From the IMG/VR virus record IMGVR_UViG_3300042446_001484, positions 1-64,000 of that record: a stretch of DNA of 64,000 bases; one strand, written 5' to 3'. Source of the stretch: a virus. The translations under genes were made by a program, and so were the position numbers. This document shows positions 1-51,854 of the stretch, one piece after another (position 1 is the stretch's first letter; each line of letters opens with the position of its first letter). Under the pieces are notes generated by a model, which saw only the letters and a program-made list of their open reading frames with translations, was not told the origin of the DNA and did not search any database.

Positions 1-72
1 CCTACAACATAGATATAAATTAATCCGGTCGTATTACCTTATTCGCTCGGGACTCTTCGAGTCCCTCGCTTG

Positions 73-97
73 ACCCGGTTGTATGACCGGGTTTTTT
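73..97 (+). terminator. Rho-independent terminator
   Basis: A 7-bp perfect stem (ACCCGGT/ACCGGGT) with loop TGTATG is followed directly by six T residues on the plus strand. The upstream gene it would serve lies outside the window or is one of the hairpin transcripts here. A second, incomplete copy (CCCGGTTGTATGACC) occurs at about 247-261 without the T run. Confidence 0.75.
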
Positions 98-325
98 GTT
101 TCCGGTCGAAAGAAGAACGCTTCATAAGATCCGCATCATAAAACCCAGCCGTATGACGCCGGGCGGAAGCGAGCCCCTCAGGGCGAGCAATTAATGTACT
201 ACCTGTCGACCGGCTATTACGCTCGGACCTGACGGTCCTCGCTTGACCCGGTTGTATGACCCGTATAGATGTGGATAACTTAATTTGCGCCTTTCAGAAA
301 AAATTTGTATGACTCGGGCCGCCAA

Positions 326-351
326 CGAGGTCGACCGAAAGGTCGAGCGAG
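326..351. repeat. Left arm of a 26-bp inverted repeat (hairpin-forming)
   Basis: This arm is the exact reverse complement of 600-625 over 26 bases. Each arm is itself a hairpin with a TCGACC/GGTCGA stem and a 4-nt loop (GAAA here). The two copies enclose about 250 bp of AT-rich non-coding DNA. Confidence 0.8.
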
Positions 352-599
352 TGTACTCATTTCTGGAAATTTTTAGAAAGTGGGTCGTGAGTCACGCAAG
401 GGTCAATCCCCAGAGCTTCCCACTTATTAACATTTTTTCCCACTTTTCCATTTTGTAATACAGATATATGGAAATATAGCCATTTTGTCATACAATCATA
501 CATAAAATATGAGTACGATAAAAAGGTATGGATATTAGTACTAAAAACGCAATAAAAATAGGGGTAAAATTTATCCGGTCGATATGTCATAGTAATATG

Positions 600-625
600 C
601 TCGCTCGACCTTTCGGTCGACCTCG
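600..625. repeat. Right arm of the 26-bp inverted repeat
   Basis: Exact reverse complement of 326-351. It has a TCGACC/GGTCGA stem with a TTTC loop and lies 25 nt past the stop codon of the minus-strand glycosyltransferase gene, so it may help terminate that operon, although no clear T run follows. Confidence 0.75.
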
Positions 626-650
626 CTAAGACCTGGAGTATACTAGGAAT

Positions 651-1373
651 TTAGTCCCAGTAGTTAACGTCTTTTCTATAATGGTCTGGATTATCTCTAT
701 GGATATAGTTTAGGATTACTAGTTTAAGCATACCTAGGTATCCCATTTTTTTGAATCTTCTATCGTCTTGACCTACATAGTATTTTGATATTCTAAAGTT
801 GGCGGGGTTGTAGGTTTTTGACAGGGCGTAATCTTCTGAGTGTTGAAGTGTCTCGTCGAATTTATTTCTTTTTCTGAATTCATCAGTTCTGGTCAAGAAG
901 AAAGTCCCTATTGCGAAGGGGGTTTTAGTGGAGATGATTTTGTTTAGGGGGTTGAAGATATGGAATACGAGTGAGGTTCTAATGTCCTTACCTATGGACT
1001 TTATTTTACAGGTTAGAAGATGAAGGTGTTCATGTTGCATTCTATATATGCTATTGTTTATTATATCTCTATTCAGGAGAACTACATCAGCATCTAGGAA
1101 TAGTGTGTATTTGGTAGTTACAAGATCAGAACCTTTATTTCTACCATAAGCGACTTTACCTCCATTTATTATTTCTATGTTGATAATATCCTTATAGGTA
1201 TATTTTAGTTCGTATAGTATATTCCTAGTATTATCAGTAGAGTTAGCGTCTGCTATGATTACTTTTGTACCATTTATACCATATTGTTCTACTATGGATA
1301 GTATAGTTCTCCCTATGTATTTTTCTTCATTCTTACAAGGAATCACTATAGTGAGTTTATCCTTTATATTCAT
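651..1373 (-). CDS. Family 2 glycosyltransferase
   Basis: A GT-A fold glycosyltransferase that would transfer a sugar from a nucleotide-sugar donor. The family-2 N-terminus is clear (TIVIPCKNEE, then DANSTDNT), and LFLDADVVL carries the metal- and donor-binding DxD motif. No signal peptide or strong membrane helix is evident, so it is probably cytoplasmic. I chose the ATG at 1373 because it leaves the usual short lead before the first beta strand; in-frame ATGs at 1391 and 1421 are alternatives. The start overlaps the end of the phosphatase gene by 17 bp, so the two are probably co-translated. The acceptor is unknown; the neighbouring LpxH-like gene hints at lipid or surface glycan. Confidence 0.85.
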   Translation of the reverse strand: MNIKDKLTIVIPCKNEEKYIGRTILSIVEQYGINGTKVIIADANSTDNTRNILYELKYTYKDIINIEIINGGKVAYGRNKGSDLVTTKYTLFLDADVVLLNRDIINNSIYRMQHEHLHLLTCKIKSIGKDIRTSLVFHIFNPLNKIISTKTPFAIGTFFLTRTDEFRKRNKFDETLQHSEDYALSKTYNPANFRISKYYVGQDDRRFKKMGYLGMLKLVILNYIHRDNPDHYRKDVNYWD

Positions 1374-2049
1374 GTACTTGGTATTTTCCATTGTTATAAG
1401 TGATATAGGAGTTATTTTCAATCCAATCCCCGGAATTTAGGTATCTTACTCCATCGACCATTCTATCGTCTGGATGGTGTATATGACCGCATATAACGGT
1501 ATCGCAATTATGTTTCTTTGCTTGGCGGATTAGTTCATATTCAAAGGAGGTAATGAATTTAACGGCTTCTTTAACCTTGCTCTTTAGGAATTTAGATAGA
1601 GAGCGTTTCATCCCCAGCGATTTTAGTGTACGGTCGATGGTTATGGCGAAATCATATCCGACGGAACCTAGTATACCTAACCACTTTAGTTTAACTACGC
1701 CATCATATAAATCTCCGTGGGTAATGAATGTATTGTTCCAGATATACTCATTATGCACCTCCAGATTACCAAAACTGAATTCACCATATTCCCTTAAGAA
1801 TTCGTCATGATTCCCCGGGATATATATTACCTTAGTGTTATTTTTGGAATAGGACAGTATTTTCCTGATGACATTGGTGTGAGATTGTGGCCAACGGAAC
1901 TTTCTTTTTAAGAGCCAGCCGTCGATTATATCCCCAACAAGGAATAAAGTTTGCGGTTCATACTGCTTTAATAGCGCCAGAACGCCTTCGGCGTTGGAAC
2001 CTTTGGACCCGAGGTGAACATCGGAAATGAATAATGCTTCTACTTTCAT
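1357..2049 (-). CDS. LpxH-like metallophosphoesterase (UDP-2,3-diacylglucosamine hydrolase family)
   Basis: A calcineurin-like two-metal phosphoesterase of about 230 residues. The metal-ligand motifs run in order: SDVHLGS, GDIIDGW, GNHDEF, THGDLYD and GHIHHP. Spacing and length match LpxH, which cleaves the pyrophosphate of UDP-2,3-diacylglucosamine in lipid A synthesis, and many uncharacterised LpxH-like enzymes. In-frame sequence upstream encodes 14 more residues, but the ATG at 2049 starts the first beta strand and lies 4 nt after the octamer ATATTTAT, so I use it. It is probably co-expressed with the glycosyltransferase that follows. Substrate is inferred from family only. Confidence 0.82.
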   Translation of the reverse strand: MKVEALFISDVHLGSKGSNAEGVLALLKQYEPQTLFLVGDIIDGWLLKRKFRWPQSHTNVIRKILSYSKNNTKVIYIPGNHDEFLREYGEFSFGNLEVHNEYIWNNTFITHGDLYDGVVKLKWLGILGSVGYDFAITIDRTLKSLGMKRSLSKFLKSKVKEAVKFITSFEYELIRQAKKHNCDTVICGHIHHPDDRMVDGVRYLNSGDWIENNSYITYNNGKYQVHEYKG

Positions 2050-2053
2050 TCTG

Positions 2054-2061
2054 ATAAATAT
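2054..2061 (-). promoter_or_regulatory. ATATTTAT start-proximal element (putative late promoter)
   Basis: The octamer ATATTTAT on the coding strand ends 4 nt before the ATG at 2049. The same octamer, at 4-6 nt, precedes genes at 4328, 13037, 18003, 21489 and 34500. It resembles the T4-type late -10 element TATAAATA read on the opposite strand. Confidence 0.5.
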
Positions 2062-2063
2062 GG

Positions 2064-2399
2064 CTATAACACTTCGGTTAGTATTCTCCATTCTTTCAGG
2101 AGCATACCATCAAGGGTGACTTCGACTGGAATGTCTTTTAGGTTTTCCACCCTATTAACTTTCGCTTCTTTAAGAAGTTTGGAAACGAATCTCATGGTCT
2201 CGTCGAATCCTATTGTTCTATCTTTTTCTGTCCATTTGGTATATTCGCTACGGGTAACCATCTCAGGGTCCCATGTACCTTTAAAATCACCTACACTCCA
2301 AGAACTATCACCAAGTGTGACAGATATACCAATGCATGCATCCTGATAACCTCCGTGGCCAAATCTAACTGATTGTATTTTACCTAGTTTCTTTTCCAT
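2064..2399 (-). CDS. Conserved phage hypothetical protein (111 aa)
   Basis: A soluble protein opening with GKIQSVRFGHGGYQDACIG, an N-terminus I recognise from uncharacterised phage and bacterial proteins. It has no signal peptide, membrane helix or recognisable catalytic motif. Several Trp and Gly residues in the first half suggest a compact beta fold. It is transcribed before the LpxH-like gene, whose putative promoter sits just past this stop codon. Function unknown. Confidence 0.75.
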   Translation of the reverse strand: MEKKLGKIQSVRFGHGGYQDACIGISVTLGDSSWSVGDFKGTWDPEMVTRSEYTKWTEKDRTIGFDETMRFVSKLLKEAKVNRVENLKDIPVEVTLDGMLLKEWRILTEVL

Positions 2400-2402
2400 A
2401 TA

Positions 2403-2449
2403 TTATGTTAGTATAATTTTTCTCCAAGAGTGTCCGTATCTGGTCGGAA
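2403..2449 (-). pseudogene. Remnant copy of a homing-endonuclease C-terminal tail
   Basis: Bases 2423-2449 match 2849-2875, the 3' end of the HNH gene, at 26 of 27 positions. On the minus strand the remnant reads PTRYGHSWRKIILT then a stop, against PTRYGHSWKKMVLL in the intact HNH protein. It begins one codon past the GIY-YIG stop codon and in the same frame. It therefore looks like the tail of a second NUMOD1-type endonuclease whose body was replaced by the GIY-YIG gene. Confidence 0.75.
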
Positions 2450-2450
2450 A

Positions 2451-2810
2451 TTAATGTATAAAATGATTAGGTCTGCTAATGTTATTATATGTGGGTTTAT
2501 AGTATATAATAAGGTTTTCCTCTATGAATCTAGACATTAGAGCACAACCTATTAGGTACTTTTCAAAAATATCCCATTGTATTTTTTTATTATAACAATG
2601 ACTTCGAATTCTTATATGAAGTTGTTTACTAAAGCCAATATAAACTATCTTGTCGCCTTTATAAAGAACATAAACACCTATTTCATCCATTGGTTTGTTA
2701 AACATATATCTACGCCACGCATTTTCCTCATATTCTAATCTATCACCAACTTCAAAGAGTGAATCATCTATTCCAAATATATCAGCAATCAATTCCCTAG
2801 GATGAACCAT
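2451..2810 (-). CDS. GIY-YIG nuclease-domain protein (putative homing endonuclease)
   Basis: A 119-residue protein with a GIY-YIG core: GVYVLYKG then YIGFSK about 12 residues on, an Arg in RIRSH, and the metal-binding Glu in RFIEENLIIYYKPTYN. The domain fills residues 45-115; the N-terminus (EVGDRLEYEENAWRRY) may contribute DNA binding. It lies 3' of an HNH endonuclease and is followed by a stray copy of that gene's tail, which suggests a mobile element. It is shorter than typical intron-encoded GIY-YIG enzymes and lacks a separate recognition domain. Confidence 0.82.
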   Translation of the reverse strand: MVHPRELIADIFGIDDSLFEVGDRLEYEENAWRRYMFNKPMDEIGVYVLYKGDKIVYIGFSKQLHIRIRSHCYNKKIQWDIFEKYLIGCALMSRFIEENLIIYYKPTYNNISRPNHFIH

Positions 2811-14623: not shown

Positions 14624-14822
14624 ATTGAAATGGTTTATTTTTTTCTATACCAATATCACCCCATGGATCATTTTTTAGTGTGTCTGTGATTTCTCTTTTA
14701 AAGATATACGAACCAGCATCACATAAAATAAGTTCCCATCCTTCTCGACCCAATAAATTCATCTCGTCAATCTTGATATAATCAACGTGCTTAACTTCTT
14801 TGTATTCAAAAAATTTAGTCAT
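14616..14822 (-). CDS. DUF4177-like small protein (68 aa)
   Basis: FFEYKEVKHVDYIKIDEMNL followed by LGREGWELILCDAGSYIFKR resembles the DUF4177 fold, in which 'G.eGWEL' precedes a final beta strand. I use the ATG at 14822; an ATG two codons earlier exists. It overlaps the following gene by 8 bp. The function of the fold is unknown. Confidence 0.58.
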   Translation of the reverse strand: MTKFFEYKEVKHVDYIKIDEMNLLGREGWELILCDAGSYIFKREITDTLKNDPWGDIGIEKNKPFQYE

Positions 14823-47987: not shown

Positions 47988-50900
47988 TTATTCTGGTCGC
48001 TTTGGTGTTGCATCTTCTGGTTTTACTTCTTGCAACATAAATTTATATACTTTATTTCTTTTATTATTATATAAGAACAAATCATCCTCACCCTCAACAA
48101 TTGTGTAATCACCAATACCGTTTGATAACGATAAATCCGATGTAAATAATGTGTTCCATCTTGCTCCAGATGAACCTAAGTTTAACGTACCATTACTTAA
48201 TGGTAATATACTTCCACCTGATGTGAATGTACCTGCGATTTGCATATTTCCATTTCCTACGTTTAACGCGGCAATTGGTGTTACTCCACTTTGTCCCCAA
48301 GTGAAACCTCTTGTCGAACTATTACTATCTATATTACACTTTATGGAGTAATCTGTAACAGGGCCATAATAATATTCAGATGAACTACCCATATGAATTT
48401 TATACGTGTCGGAACCTCCCCAAAATTTTAATCCGTTTCCATTACCCGTTGATACACCATAAGATGCGTTTAAATTACTAGCGTTTGGTGCACTACCCGC
48501 AGTAGTTGCGCTTGTAGCACTTGTTGCAAATGATACGGACTGAGAGCCAATGTTAGCTGTTGTAATTGCATCTGTAATTCCATATCCACTTATTGTTGTT
48601 GGTTTTGATGAAACGTTTGCAAAAGATATACCTGTGATGTAAGCACTATTATTTGTGAACTGTGAAATGTTCATTGATGTTAAAGCGCCCGCAGTGGTTG
48701 CAGTGGTTGCGTTTCCGGATAGTGCTCCTGAGAATGTTGGGGCTGTAATTGTACCTGGAAATGATGTGTTACCACTACCATCTAGTAATGTTGCAGTCCT
48801 AGTTATACTACTAAACACACCCGTGTATTGTCTAACATATATTGGTTCGGTACCATCATCGGAAGTTGCTATTTCAACATAACCGGCATTTGTTGCTGTA
48901 CCACCAACTCTTAATCTGAAATAATCGTTATCAGCAATTGATGCATACAATAAGTCACCAACGTTAGCACCTGTTAATACTGTGCTAACTGAACCACCAC
49001 CTGTAATTGTTAAACCACCAAATGTTGGTGAGTTACTTGTTCCTAAATTTTGATTTATATTAAAACTATTAGCAAAAGAAGTACCTGACGTACCAGAAGA
49101 CCCGCTAGAACCAGAACTTCCTGAAGACCCAGATGTTCCACTTGAACCAGAACTCCCCGAACTACCACTGGTTCCACTTGAACCACTAGACCCTGAAGAT
49201 CCACTTGTTCCTGAACTTCCGCTAGAACCAGAAGAACCTGAAGTTCCACTAGAACCGCTAGAACCTGATGAACCCGACGTACCACTAGATCCGTTAGAAC
49301 CCGATGTTCCACTAGATCCAGAAGAACCTGAAGACCCACTTGTTCCTGAGCTTCCTGAAGTACCCGAAGTACCACTAGAACCTGAAGACCCAGACGTTCC
49401 GCTTGACCCTGAACTACCTGAAGAACCTGATGTTCCACTAGAACCATTAGAACCTGATGTTCCCGAACTTCCACTTGTTCCGGATGAACCTGAACTACCT
49501 GAAGAACCTGAGGTCCCACTTGAACCAGAACTTCCGGATGAACCAGATGTTCCACTAGAACCTGAAGAACCTGATGTTCCACTAGAACCATTAGAACCCG
49601 ATGTTCCTGACGTGCCAGATGAACCATTAGATCCCGATGTTCCGCTAGACCCTGAAGACCCTGACGTGCCAGATGAACCATTAGATCCTGAACTACCACT
49701 TGTACCACTTGTTCCTGATGAACCTGACGTACCAGACGAACCATTAGATCCTGATGTTCCACTAGAACCCGATGTGCCAGAGGTACCACTAGTTCCAGAA
49801 GTACCTGATGAACCAGCACCAACCAGGTTGGTACCAACACCTGCCGCTAAACTTGAGATATCAATATATGCACCTCTCGCAGTTCCACCTTGTTCAAAAA
49901 ATCTTAATCTATTTTGCCAAATATCTACTGTAACTCCCTCACCAACAAGTGTTGTATTAGTTAACGCTTTCCCTAATAAAATTTCACCACCTTCATCACC
50001 ACCAGTAGCATTTACAACTAATTTATTACCACCAGTAACAATTAATGAACCAGTGATTTCTGTATTTGAATTTATCGAAACGGTTGTACCGTTGTCTGTT
50101 ATATTTGAATCATTTAAGTGGTCTCCGCCCGCTGACTTTGCAACTCTACCACTAGTTAATGTTAATTCACTACCTAGTGAACCAGAACTTCTAGGACCTG
50201 ACAATAATACACCGCCACCATAACCCGCCTCACTTGAGTTTTGATAAATCCATCTATTGTTAACAGAATCCCAAAGAATTGAACCAGTAGCAATACCAAC
50301 CGATCCTGAATCATGAACTTCTAGTCCACCAAATCTAGATCCAGGGCTAGCAGTGTTTACTGTGATAATATTGTCTTCAACTCTTAATTGAGATGATGTT
50401 ACGTATGTTATTGAGGATGAACCTAATACTGTAAAATTGTTTGTCACAATTAAGGAACCAGATATTGTTTCGTTACCAACAACGGTTAAAAGTGAACCAT
50501 CAAATCTTAAATTATTTTCCGCAGTTACGTTTGGTGAGGAACCATTAAGTGTTAGAACACCATTGTCTTGTGTTCCGCTCATTGTTACGGTTCCGCTAGA
50601 TCCACTAGATCCACTAGAACCTGAGGTTCCTGATGTCCCCGCTGTACCACTAGACCCTGAACTTCCGGATGTTCCTGAACTTCCGCTTGAACCTGATGTA
50701 CCGCTTGACCCTGAAGACCCAGATGTTCCACTAGAACCTGATGAACCTGAAGTTCCTGATGAACCAGATGTTCCGCTTGTTCCTGAAGTACCTGACGACC
50801 CGTTAGAACCTGATGTTCCTGATGAACCAGAACTACCGCTCGTTCCACTAGAACCTGATGAACCTGAAGTTCCTGATGAACCAGATGTTCCGCTTGTTCC

Positions 50901-51854
50901 TGAAGTACCTGACGACCCGTTAGAACCAGAAGATCCCGATGTACCACTTGTACCAGCGGTTCCGCTAGATCCACTAGAACCTGATGTTCCAGAACTACCA
51001 CTAGAACCTGAGGTTCCTGAAGTTCCAGCGGTTCCTGAAGAACCACTACTTCCACTAGTACCAGAACTACCACTTGAACCTGATGTTCCTGAAGAACCAG
51101 ATGTTCCTGAAGAACCGCTACTTCCACTAGTACCTGACGTACCCGAACTTCCAGATGAACCCGAAGAACCACTCGTGCCCGAACTACCATTTGATCCTGA
51201 GGTTCCACTAGTGCCTGAGGTACCGCTTGATCCCGATGTTCCACTAGAACCAGAACTTCCGGATGAACCAGATGTTCCACTTGTACCTGATGACCCAGAA
51301 CTTCCGCTGGTTCCAGACGTACCCGAACTTCCCGATGAACCTGAGGTTCCTGATGTGCCAGATGTACCTGAAGAACCACTCGTACCTGACGTTCCGCTAG
51401 AACCAGAACTTCCACTTGATCCCGATGTTCCACTTGATCCTGAACTTCCTGAGGTTCCGCTAGTTCCACTAGTACCTGATGTTCCACTTGAACCTGAAGA
51501 CCCTGAGGTTCCAGATGTACCTGAGGTTCCTGATGTACCAGATGTACCTGAGGTCGCGGCATTAAAAGATGTTCCACTTATAATTAAATCACCGGTTATA
51601 ATTAATGAACCAGTAATTTCTGAATTTGTATTAATTCTTAAACCATCTGTATTTGAAATTGATGCTGTTGATGCACCGTCAGCTATTCGTGTTAAATTAA
51701 GTCCAACAACACCACCCGCTGGGATGTTTGTGATATTAGAGCCATCACCACTAAAGGAACCACTAATTGTTCCTAAAACTTTTAAATCACCCGAAATTTC
51801 GGCTGAACTTGATACGGATAATGATCCCGATATGTGTGCGTCAAATATATTCAT
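47988..51854 (-). CDS. Long tail fibre with collagen-like Gly-(Ser/Thr)-Ser repeats (1288 aa)
   Basis: Domains in order: an N-terminal part of short beta units (ISGSLSVSSSAEISGDLKVL) typical of fibre shafts, repeats at about 99-421, a middle fibre region (ISGSLIVTNNFTVLGSSSIT), repeats at about 680-924, then a C-terminal region ending SNGIGDYTIVEGEDDLFLYN. In the repeats every third residue is Gly and the other two are Ser or Thr, with no Pro: collagen-like register without the usual stabilising residues. The gene is followed by LamG and Gly-rich fibre genes and preceded by a TibC-like glycosyltransferase, which may glycosylate the Ser/Thr positions (inference). Confidence 0.9.
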   Translation of the reverse strand: MNIFDAHISGSLSVSSSAEISGDLKVLGTISGSFSGDGSNITNIPAGGVVGLNLTRIADGASTASISNTDGLRINTNSEITGSLIITGDLIISGTSFNAATSGTSGTSGTSGTSGTSGSSGSSGTSGTSGTSGTSGSSGSSGTSGSSGSSGSSGTSGTSGSSGTSGTSGTSGSSGSSGTSGTSGSSGSSGTSGTSGSSGSSGSSGTSGSSGTSGTSGTSGSNGSSGTSGSSGSSGSSGTSGTSGSSGSSGTSGSSGTSGSSGSSGTSGSSGSSGTAGTSGTSGSSGSSGTSGSSGSSGTAGTSGTSGSSGSNGSSGTSGTSGTSGSSGTSGSSGSSGTSGSSGSSGTSGSNGSSGTSGTSGTSGSSGTSGSSGSSGTSGSSGSSGTSGSSGSSGTSGSSGSSGTAGTSGTSGSSGSSGSSGTVTMSGTQDNGVLTLNGSSPNVTAENNLRFDGSLLTVVGNETISGSLIVTNNFTVLGSSSITYVTSSQLRVEDNIITVNTASPGSRFGGLEVHDSGSVGIATGSILWDSVNNRWIYQNSSEAGYGGGVLLSGPRSSGSLGSELTLTSGRVAKSAGGDHLNDSNITDNGTTVSINSNTEITGSLIVTGGNKLVVNATGGDEGGEILLGKALTNTTLVGEGVTVDIWQNRLRFFEQGGTARGAYIDISSLAAGVGTNLVGAGSSGTSGTSGTSGTSGSSGTSGSNGSSGTSGSSGTSGTSGSSGSNGSSGTSGSSGSSGTSGSNGSSGTSGTSGSNGSSGTSGSSGSSGTSGSSGSSGSSGTSGSSGSSGSSGTSGSSGTSGSNGSSGTSGSSGSSGSSGTSGSSGSSGTSGTSGSSGTSGSSGSSGSSGTSGSNGSSGTSGSSGSSGSSGTSGSSGSSGSSGTSGSSGSSGSSGTSGSSGSSGSSGTSGSSGSSGSSGSSGTSGTSFANSFNINQNLGTSNSPTFGGLTITGGGSVSTVLTGANVGDLLYASIADNDYFRLRVGGTATNAGYVEIATSDDGTEPIYVRQYTGVFSSITRTATLLDGSGNTSFPGTITAPTFSGALSGNATTATTAGALTSMNISQFTNNSAYITGISFANVSSKPTTISGYGITDAITTANIGSQSVSFATSATSATTAGSAPNASNLNASYGVSTGNGNGLKFWGGSDTYKIHMGSSSEYYYGPVTDYSIKCNIDSNSSTRGFTWGQSGVTPIAALNVGNGNMQIAGTFTSGGSILPLSNGTLNLGSSGARWNTLFTSDLSLSNGIGDYTIVEGEDDLFLYNNKRNKVYKFMLQEVKPEDATPKRPE
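49081..49815 (-). repeat. Second Gly-(Ser/Thr)-Ser repeat block
   Basis: About 735 bp of 9-bp units encoding G-x-x triplets with Ser, Thr and occasional Asn and no Pro, in the C-terminal half of the fibre (residues ~680-924). Synonymous positions vary widely, so this is an old, selected repeat rather than a recent slip expansion. Confidence 0.88.
50590..51558 (-). repeat. First Gly-(Ser/Thr)-Ser repeat block
   Basis: About 970 bp encoding roughly 320 residues of G-(S/T)-S triplets (residues ~99-421 of the fibre), with scattered Ala and Asn substitutions. A few longer units (tens of codons) recur almost exactly, which indicates internal duplication. Confidence 0.88.

Follow-up and report, generated by a model that had tools for sequence, protein, structure and literature searches.

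A conserved single-copy intergenic locus with phased iterons and variable-stem hairpins, a candidate replication origin of large uncultured phages

Introduction

Iteron and DnaA-box origins, exemplified by bacterial oriC and the lambda ori, combine phased repeats of one orientation with DnaA boxes and an adjoining AT-rich stretch, and are present once per genome. REP/RAYT and IS200/IS605 elements comprise a hairpin with a short flanking motif and have a Y1 transposase as their partner. For the lineage of large uncultured phages considered here we know of no described origin, and literature searches returned neither a description of the block reported below nor an origin for the lineage. Previous work has reported the skew of bidirectional replication in ~30% of huge phage genomes (PMC7162821). 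Hairpins read as DNA are known from the promoters recognized by the virion RNA polymerase (vRNAP) of phage N4, in which the loop and some positions are conserved and the remaining stem bases are free if paired (PMC4496689). In addition, GNA and GNNA loops closed by G-C pairs form extra-stable single-stranded-DNA minihairpins (PMC4686876), and the GC clusters of yeast mitochondria are GC-rich intergenic palindromes in AT-rich DNA that are constrained in structure and exchanged between genomes (PMC4478555).

The locus described here occupies the beginning of a 64,000-nt stretch of viral DNA (IMG/VR record IMGVR_UViG_3300042446_001484, positions 1 to 64,000), hereafter the window. Like oriC and the lambda ori, it has helically phased repeats of one orientation, an AT-rich neighbour, a single copy and, in the window and some related blocks, a DnaA-box consensus; unlike them, its array is inverted as a whole from one relative to another, variable-stem cassettes surround it, and its role as an origin is put forward from sequence. 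Its sequence is unrelated to that of any origin known to us. It shares with N4 vRNAP promoters a hairpin apparently read as DNA, with a purine-rich stable loop and a stem that is free if paired, whereas its own hairpins occur in either orientation in a region between convergent genes, have mixed loop sizes and come with no vRNAP match in 12 contigs. The palindromes resemble the yeast GC clusters in composition, structural constraint and exchange, but they sit at one locus, ordered and oriented, rather than genome-wide. A short flanking motif is likewise found in REP/RAYT and IS200/IS605 elements, from which the block differs in that its hairpins are not dispersed and no Y1 transposase was found in 12 contigs.

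Results

Genomic setting of the block

The first-pass annotation had described the start of the window as a 650-bp non-coding block, and this was confirmed. The block lies between two convergent genes that both run into it: a plus-strand gene encoding 294 aa, with its stop at window base 23 (ORF 3538-4422 of contig L003), and a minus-strand glycosyltransferase gene (Table 1). Window base 1 is the first base of its contig, and the left side was read from five near-identical contigs. The G+C content is ~45% immediately left of the block and ~33% on its right, and the first and last hairpins stand directly past the stop codons of the flanking genes. In large related phages the block was found in the equivalent position.

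Table 1. Features of the block in window coordinates
Feature	Position	Strand	Basis or remark
Convergent intergenic block (whole element)	24-650	.	Left gene ends at base 23, right gene 651-1421 minus; same place in relatives
Hairpin unit 1, GCTCG-flanked	45-69	+	GAA triloop on minus strand
Intrinsic terminator of left gene	72-93	+	GTATGAC in loop
Four GTATGAC heptamers	81-87, 151-157, 254-260, 307-313 (span 81-313)	+	Sequence count
Hairpin unit 2, inverted, short stem, weak singly	169-188	-	Flank match and shuffle test
Hairpin unit 3	221-242	+	Loop GTCA on minus strand, read from sequence
Exact DnaA-box consensus TTATCCACA	270-278	-	Sequence match
Hairpin unit 4, GAAA loop	326-351	-	Exact inverted copy of 600-625
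Conserved single-copy core (model R1, E = 1.4e-21)	360-476	+	Sequence-only model
Core anchor GGGTCAATCCC	400-410	+	Block comparison
Phased iterons, CCAC at 420 and 440 with a degenerate copy between	419-448	+	10-bp array in relatives
AT-rich stretch, 22-32% G+C, possible unwinding region	424-598	.	Composition
TACGATAAAA, conserved as TACGAYAAAA downstream of iterons in most blocks	514-523	+	Block comparison
Hairpin unit 5, beyond core	599-626	+	GAAA loop on minus strand

A 61-aa gene immediately left of the block (L003:3282-3467) was a conserved neighbour, and a search with it recovered 33 loci, most of them then followed by a convergent block. A structure prediction for its product (pLDDT 84) shows three to four strands plus one helix, with AP2 and integrase arm domains among its structural matches, all of them weak and none significant. 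The protein is at most a candidate binder, its predicted sheet-plus-helix arrangement resembling the DNA-binding AP2 and integrase arm domains. One relative of the protein, compared with 50,697 phage records, was without a match, and the family was not found in bacterial genomes.

On the right, the glycosyltransferase gene (family 2) adjoins a gene for a calcineurin-like phosphoesterase (together window 651-2091); the two genes are neighbours in many related contigs, and hundreds of viral contigs' proteins are related to the phosphoesterase. Further along, a 43-nt direct repeat (TCCAAGARTGTCCGTATCTGGTCGGAARTT; window 2410-2452 and 2836-2878, 88% identical) occupies two gaps upstream of minus-strand genes and is perhaps a promoter or regulatory site. 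A strong 9/27-bp repeat register marks 47988-51854, which encodes a 1288-aa protein with collagen-like and tail-fibre matches.

Hairpins with constant flanks and heptamers

The five hairpins with recurring flanks noticed in the first-pass annotation are real, with the limits given in Table 1, and they alternate in orientation. The pattern GCTCG-N8-30-CTCGC matched five times (four distinct sites, 599-626 being matched twice), all within 1-650, against 0.05 expected from shuffling, and no such flank pair was found elsewhere in the full 80.6-kb contig. The outer flanks of unit 4 are imperfect (AACGAG...CGAGCGAG). Two hairpins had also been reported as exact inverted copies, and units 4 and 5 indeed share a perfect 26-bp inverted pair. 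Taken singly, 45-69 and 599-626 exceeded shuffled sequence (p < 0.01 for both), whereas 169-188 (p = 0.34) and 221-242 (p = 0.10) were weak. When both strands were folded, a check proposed with the annotation, the 650 bp clearly outdid its shuffles (z = -6.6 and -7.5), an effect due mostly to the 26-bp inverted pair. Concerted evolution of stems within one genome was also considered and was dropped (p = 0.23). A sixth hairpin of the same family (GCGAGCCCGTCAGGGTGAGC) was detected where a 115-aa reading frame ends, 1.2 kb to the left of the window (L003:3167-3186).

The reported fourfold recurrence of GTATGAC, once in a terminator loop, holds as well, the copy at 81 being the one in the loop, and a fifth copy lies on the minus strand at 487. 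Over the whole 64-kb window the heptamer was not enriched (5 found, 6.8 expected). Across related blocks its density was 3.6 per kb against 0.5 outside, with 53 copies on the plus strand and 5 on the minus strand.

Relatives retain the structure with different stems

In the closest block-bearing relative (G007, 93 kb), the flanks pick out hairpins at 14669, 14786 and 15409, and five units of the window's flank family follow the window in order and orientation (+,-,+,-,+) but differ from it in their stems: GGACCAGTA(CCA)TACTGGTCC in unit 1, GTCAGTA(TAG)TACTGAC in unit 2, GCCCAGTA(CCA)TACTGGGC in unit 3, a longer unit 4, and GCAATC(TCTC)GATTGC in unit 5. Other clades have different hairpin flanks, with TTAC or CGGTC on one side and TTCA or TCCCTTCA on the opposite side, and these patterns were also restricted to the block in contigs of 131 and 176 kb. 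Within a close group of four (L107, L109, L110 and L111), compensated changes affect 2 pairs of one hairpin and 3 of another in near-constant flanks, giving 5 compensatory cells and 0 broken ones, and the last hairpin has been replaced wholesale. Moreover, two cassettes show no difference over 34-39 nt although the blocks that carry them have diverged in their backbones (~71% identity in the case of L107 and L118), and some hairpin cassettes look to have been exchanged as units, the one sense in which the recombination hot spot suggested earlier may apply. The search of related phage genomes yielded relatives with changed stems, constant flanks and compensatory changes, so that the outcome named beforehand as refuting did not arise, and the selection on structure suggested earlier is supported.

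The hairpins are clustered on the tree, yet they are missing from several core-bearing phages and hence cannot be essential to what the core basically does; they are accessory to it. Searches beyond this phage lineage indicated that the hairpins are confined to it, and one cassette pattern was looked for in bacterial genomes and not found. Most of the contigs compared are fragments. In the convergent block of one 310-kb relative, a 36-bp repeat (GTTGTGATTTCCTTGCGAATTAATATAAGTAACAAC and variants) additionally occurs seven times in 65-66-bp steps (L122:7217-7655), a CRISPR-like array in a phage.

Loops of the hairpins

Among distinct non-terminator hairpins with stems of at least 6 pairs from 23 blocks, 21 of 37 had a C-GNA-G or C-GNNA-G loop on one strand, compared with 4 of 232 control hairpins from the same loci (p = 1.4e-17, an optimistic value given that the blocks are related and not independent). 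This is the loop and G-C closing rule of the DNA minihairpins, which are themselves a biophysical class studied on oligonucleotides and not a biological system. Loops such as GACA, GTTA, GTCA, GAA and GTA differ from the RNA-stabilizing GNRA and UNCG loops. The rule is a strong tendency and not a law: units 1-3 of G007 (loops CCA and TAG) break it. Several core-bearing phages have no GNA hairpins. An interpretation in terms of stable UUCG loops of RNA was discarded, as the loop is a triloop UUC that is notable only as GAA on the opposite DNA strand.

A conserved core with phased iterons

A core of ~120 bp is common to blocks with and without hairpins, and consists of GGGWCAATCCC followed by CCAC repeats phased 10 bp apart, next to AT-rich DNA. 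Model R1, which includes the window sequence itself, matched the window once. Of 22 related contigs, which reach 335 kb, 14 had exactly one site and none had more than one, and a search with a degenerate core, aimed at further relatives of the window's type, returned only those already known. The iterons follow exact 10-bp steps in a single orientation per phage, flipped in about half of the phages, and phased CCAC pairs numbered 33 against 0.04 in shuffles. Inversion of the array as a whole agrees with protein sites on double-stranded DNA and is at odds with an RNA; RNAalifold found no pairs in a consensus of the core. In the window, the AT-rich stretch adjoins the array downstream.

Exact DnaA boxes were 13-fold denser in the blocks (8 in 16 kb) than outside (10 in 262 kb; p = 3e-6, likewise optimistic for related blocks), although many blocks have none. 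No phage-encoded DnaA was found. The GC skew of two large contigs runs with the direction of the genes, and as such it does not discriminate between an origin and a terminus. On this sequence evidence, the core appears to be a protein-binding array on double-stranded DNA and is most like a replication origin. An origin was among four functions guessed at for the block before, and it fits best of the four; its basis, however, is the core, which the earlier reading had missed.

Discussion

The block is best explained as a cis-acting DNA control locus, present in single copy in a lineage of large uncultured phages and most likely serving as their replication origin, a reading to which we give about even chances. 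The functional steps that we infer are as follows. Host DnaA or a phage protein, as the initiator, would occupy the 10-bp-phased iterons on one face of the helix and open the adjoining AT-rich DNA. The variable-stem hairpins would work as DNA, extruded or single-stranded, with their extra-stable GNA/GNNA loops, and would be recognized by shape, loop and flank instead of stem sequence, perhaps as priming or loading sites. More speculatively, the locus may belong to a class of origins with modular single-stranded-DNA GNA/GNNA hairpins that are read solely by shape and flank, their stems free to be swapped like cassettes, amounting to a shape code for replication start or priming.

Against an origin stands the site itself, between convergent genes, where a terminus would be equally natural. 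A single-copy cis site with another job is accordingly the foremost competitor, clearly less probable than an origin: a pac packaging start, a replication terminus, or a centromere-like partition site with a ParR/TubR-type protein on the iterons would account equally well for the single copy, the phased iterons and the flanking repeats, and the core is located where gene directions and skew converge. Nevertheless, the DnaA-box enrichment and the AT-rich neighbour favour an origin, and no terminase or partition gene was noticed beside the core on non-systematic inspection. It is rather unlikely that the hairpins are small mobile palindromic elements in a tolerated spot beside an unrelated core, their stems kept by replication-slippage (quasipalindrome) repair and not by function. 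The cassettes shared between diverged backbones, the hairpin-free cores, the short direct CTCG repeats flanking the stems and the related hairpin outside the block are all consistent with mobility, whereas the confinement of hairpins to one block in the 131- and 176-kb contigs and to this lineage, the agreement of the window and G007 in order and orientation, and the lack of a Y1 transposase (PF01797 in 0 of 12 contigs, with control genomes positive) argue against it, and the loop tendency and the GTATGAC association would be left unexplained.

RNA elements, whether a small-RNA locus, as had been suggested for the block, or 3'-end hairpins and terminators protecting convergent transcripts, are improbable. 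Such elements would suit the two genes that end into the block, its one true terminator and the hairpins directly after the stop codons. However, the block had no Rfam match at the gathering threshold, the core has no RNA consensus structure, the iterons flip, the hairpins occur in both orientations, and promoter-like sites were not above chance; the loops tend to obey the DNA rule and not the RNA tetraloop rules, pointing to structure at the DNA level, and the small-RNA suggestion is not supported. Least probable are hairpin promoters of the N4 type, recognized by a virion RNA polymerase, even though the early promoters of N4 form hairpins whose three-base loop has a sheared G:A and whose non-conserved stem bases may vary if paired (PMC4496689). 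The loops of the block fit partly, but triloops and tetraloops are mixed, and the hairpins, being in both orientations, do not stand as stable-purine-loop hairpins upstream of transcribed genes, the convergent genes leaving nothing obvious to transcribe; a search of 12 contigs, run without a positive control, matched no N4 vRNAP-like protein.

With a replication origin as the preferred reading, the recognizable single-copy core would allow candidate origins to be placed in many metagenomic phage genomes and compared directly with read coverage. Should the hairpins prove functional, they would offer a natural example in which selection acts on DNA shape and leaves the stem sequence free, which would parallel the N4 promoters in another setting.
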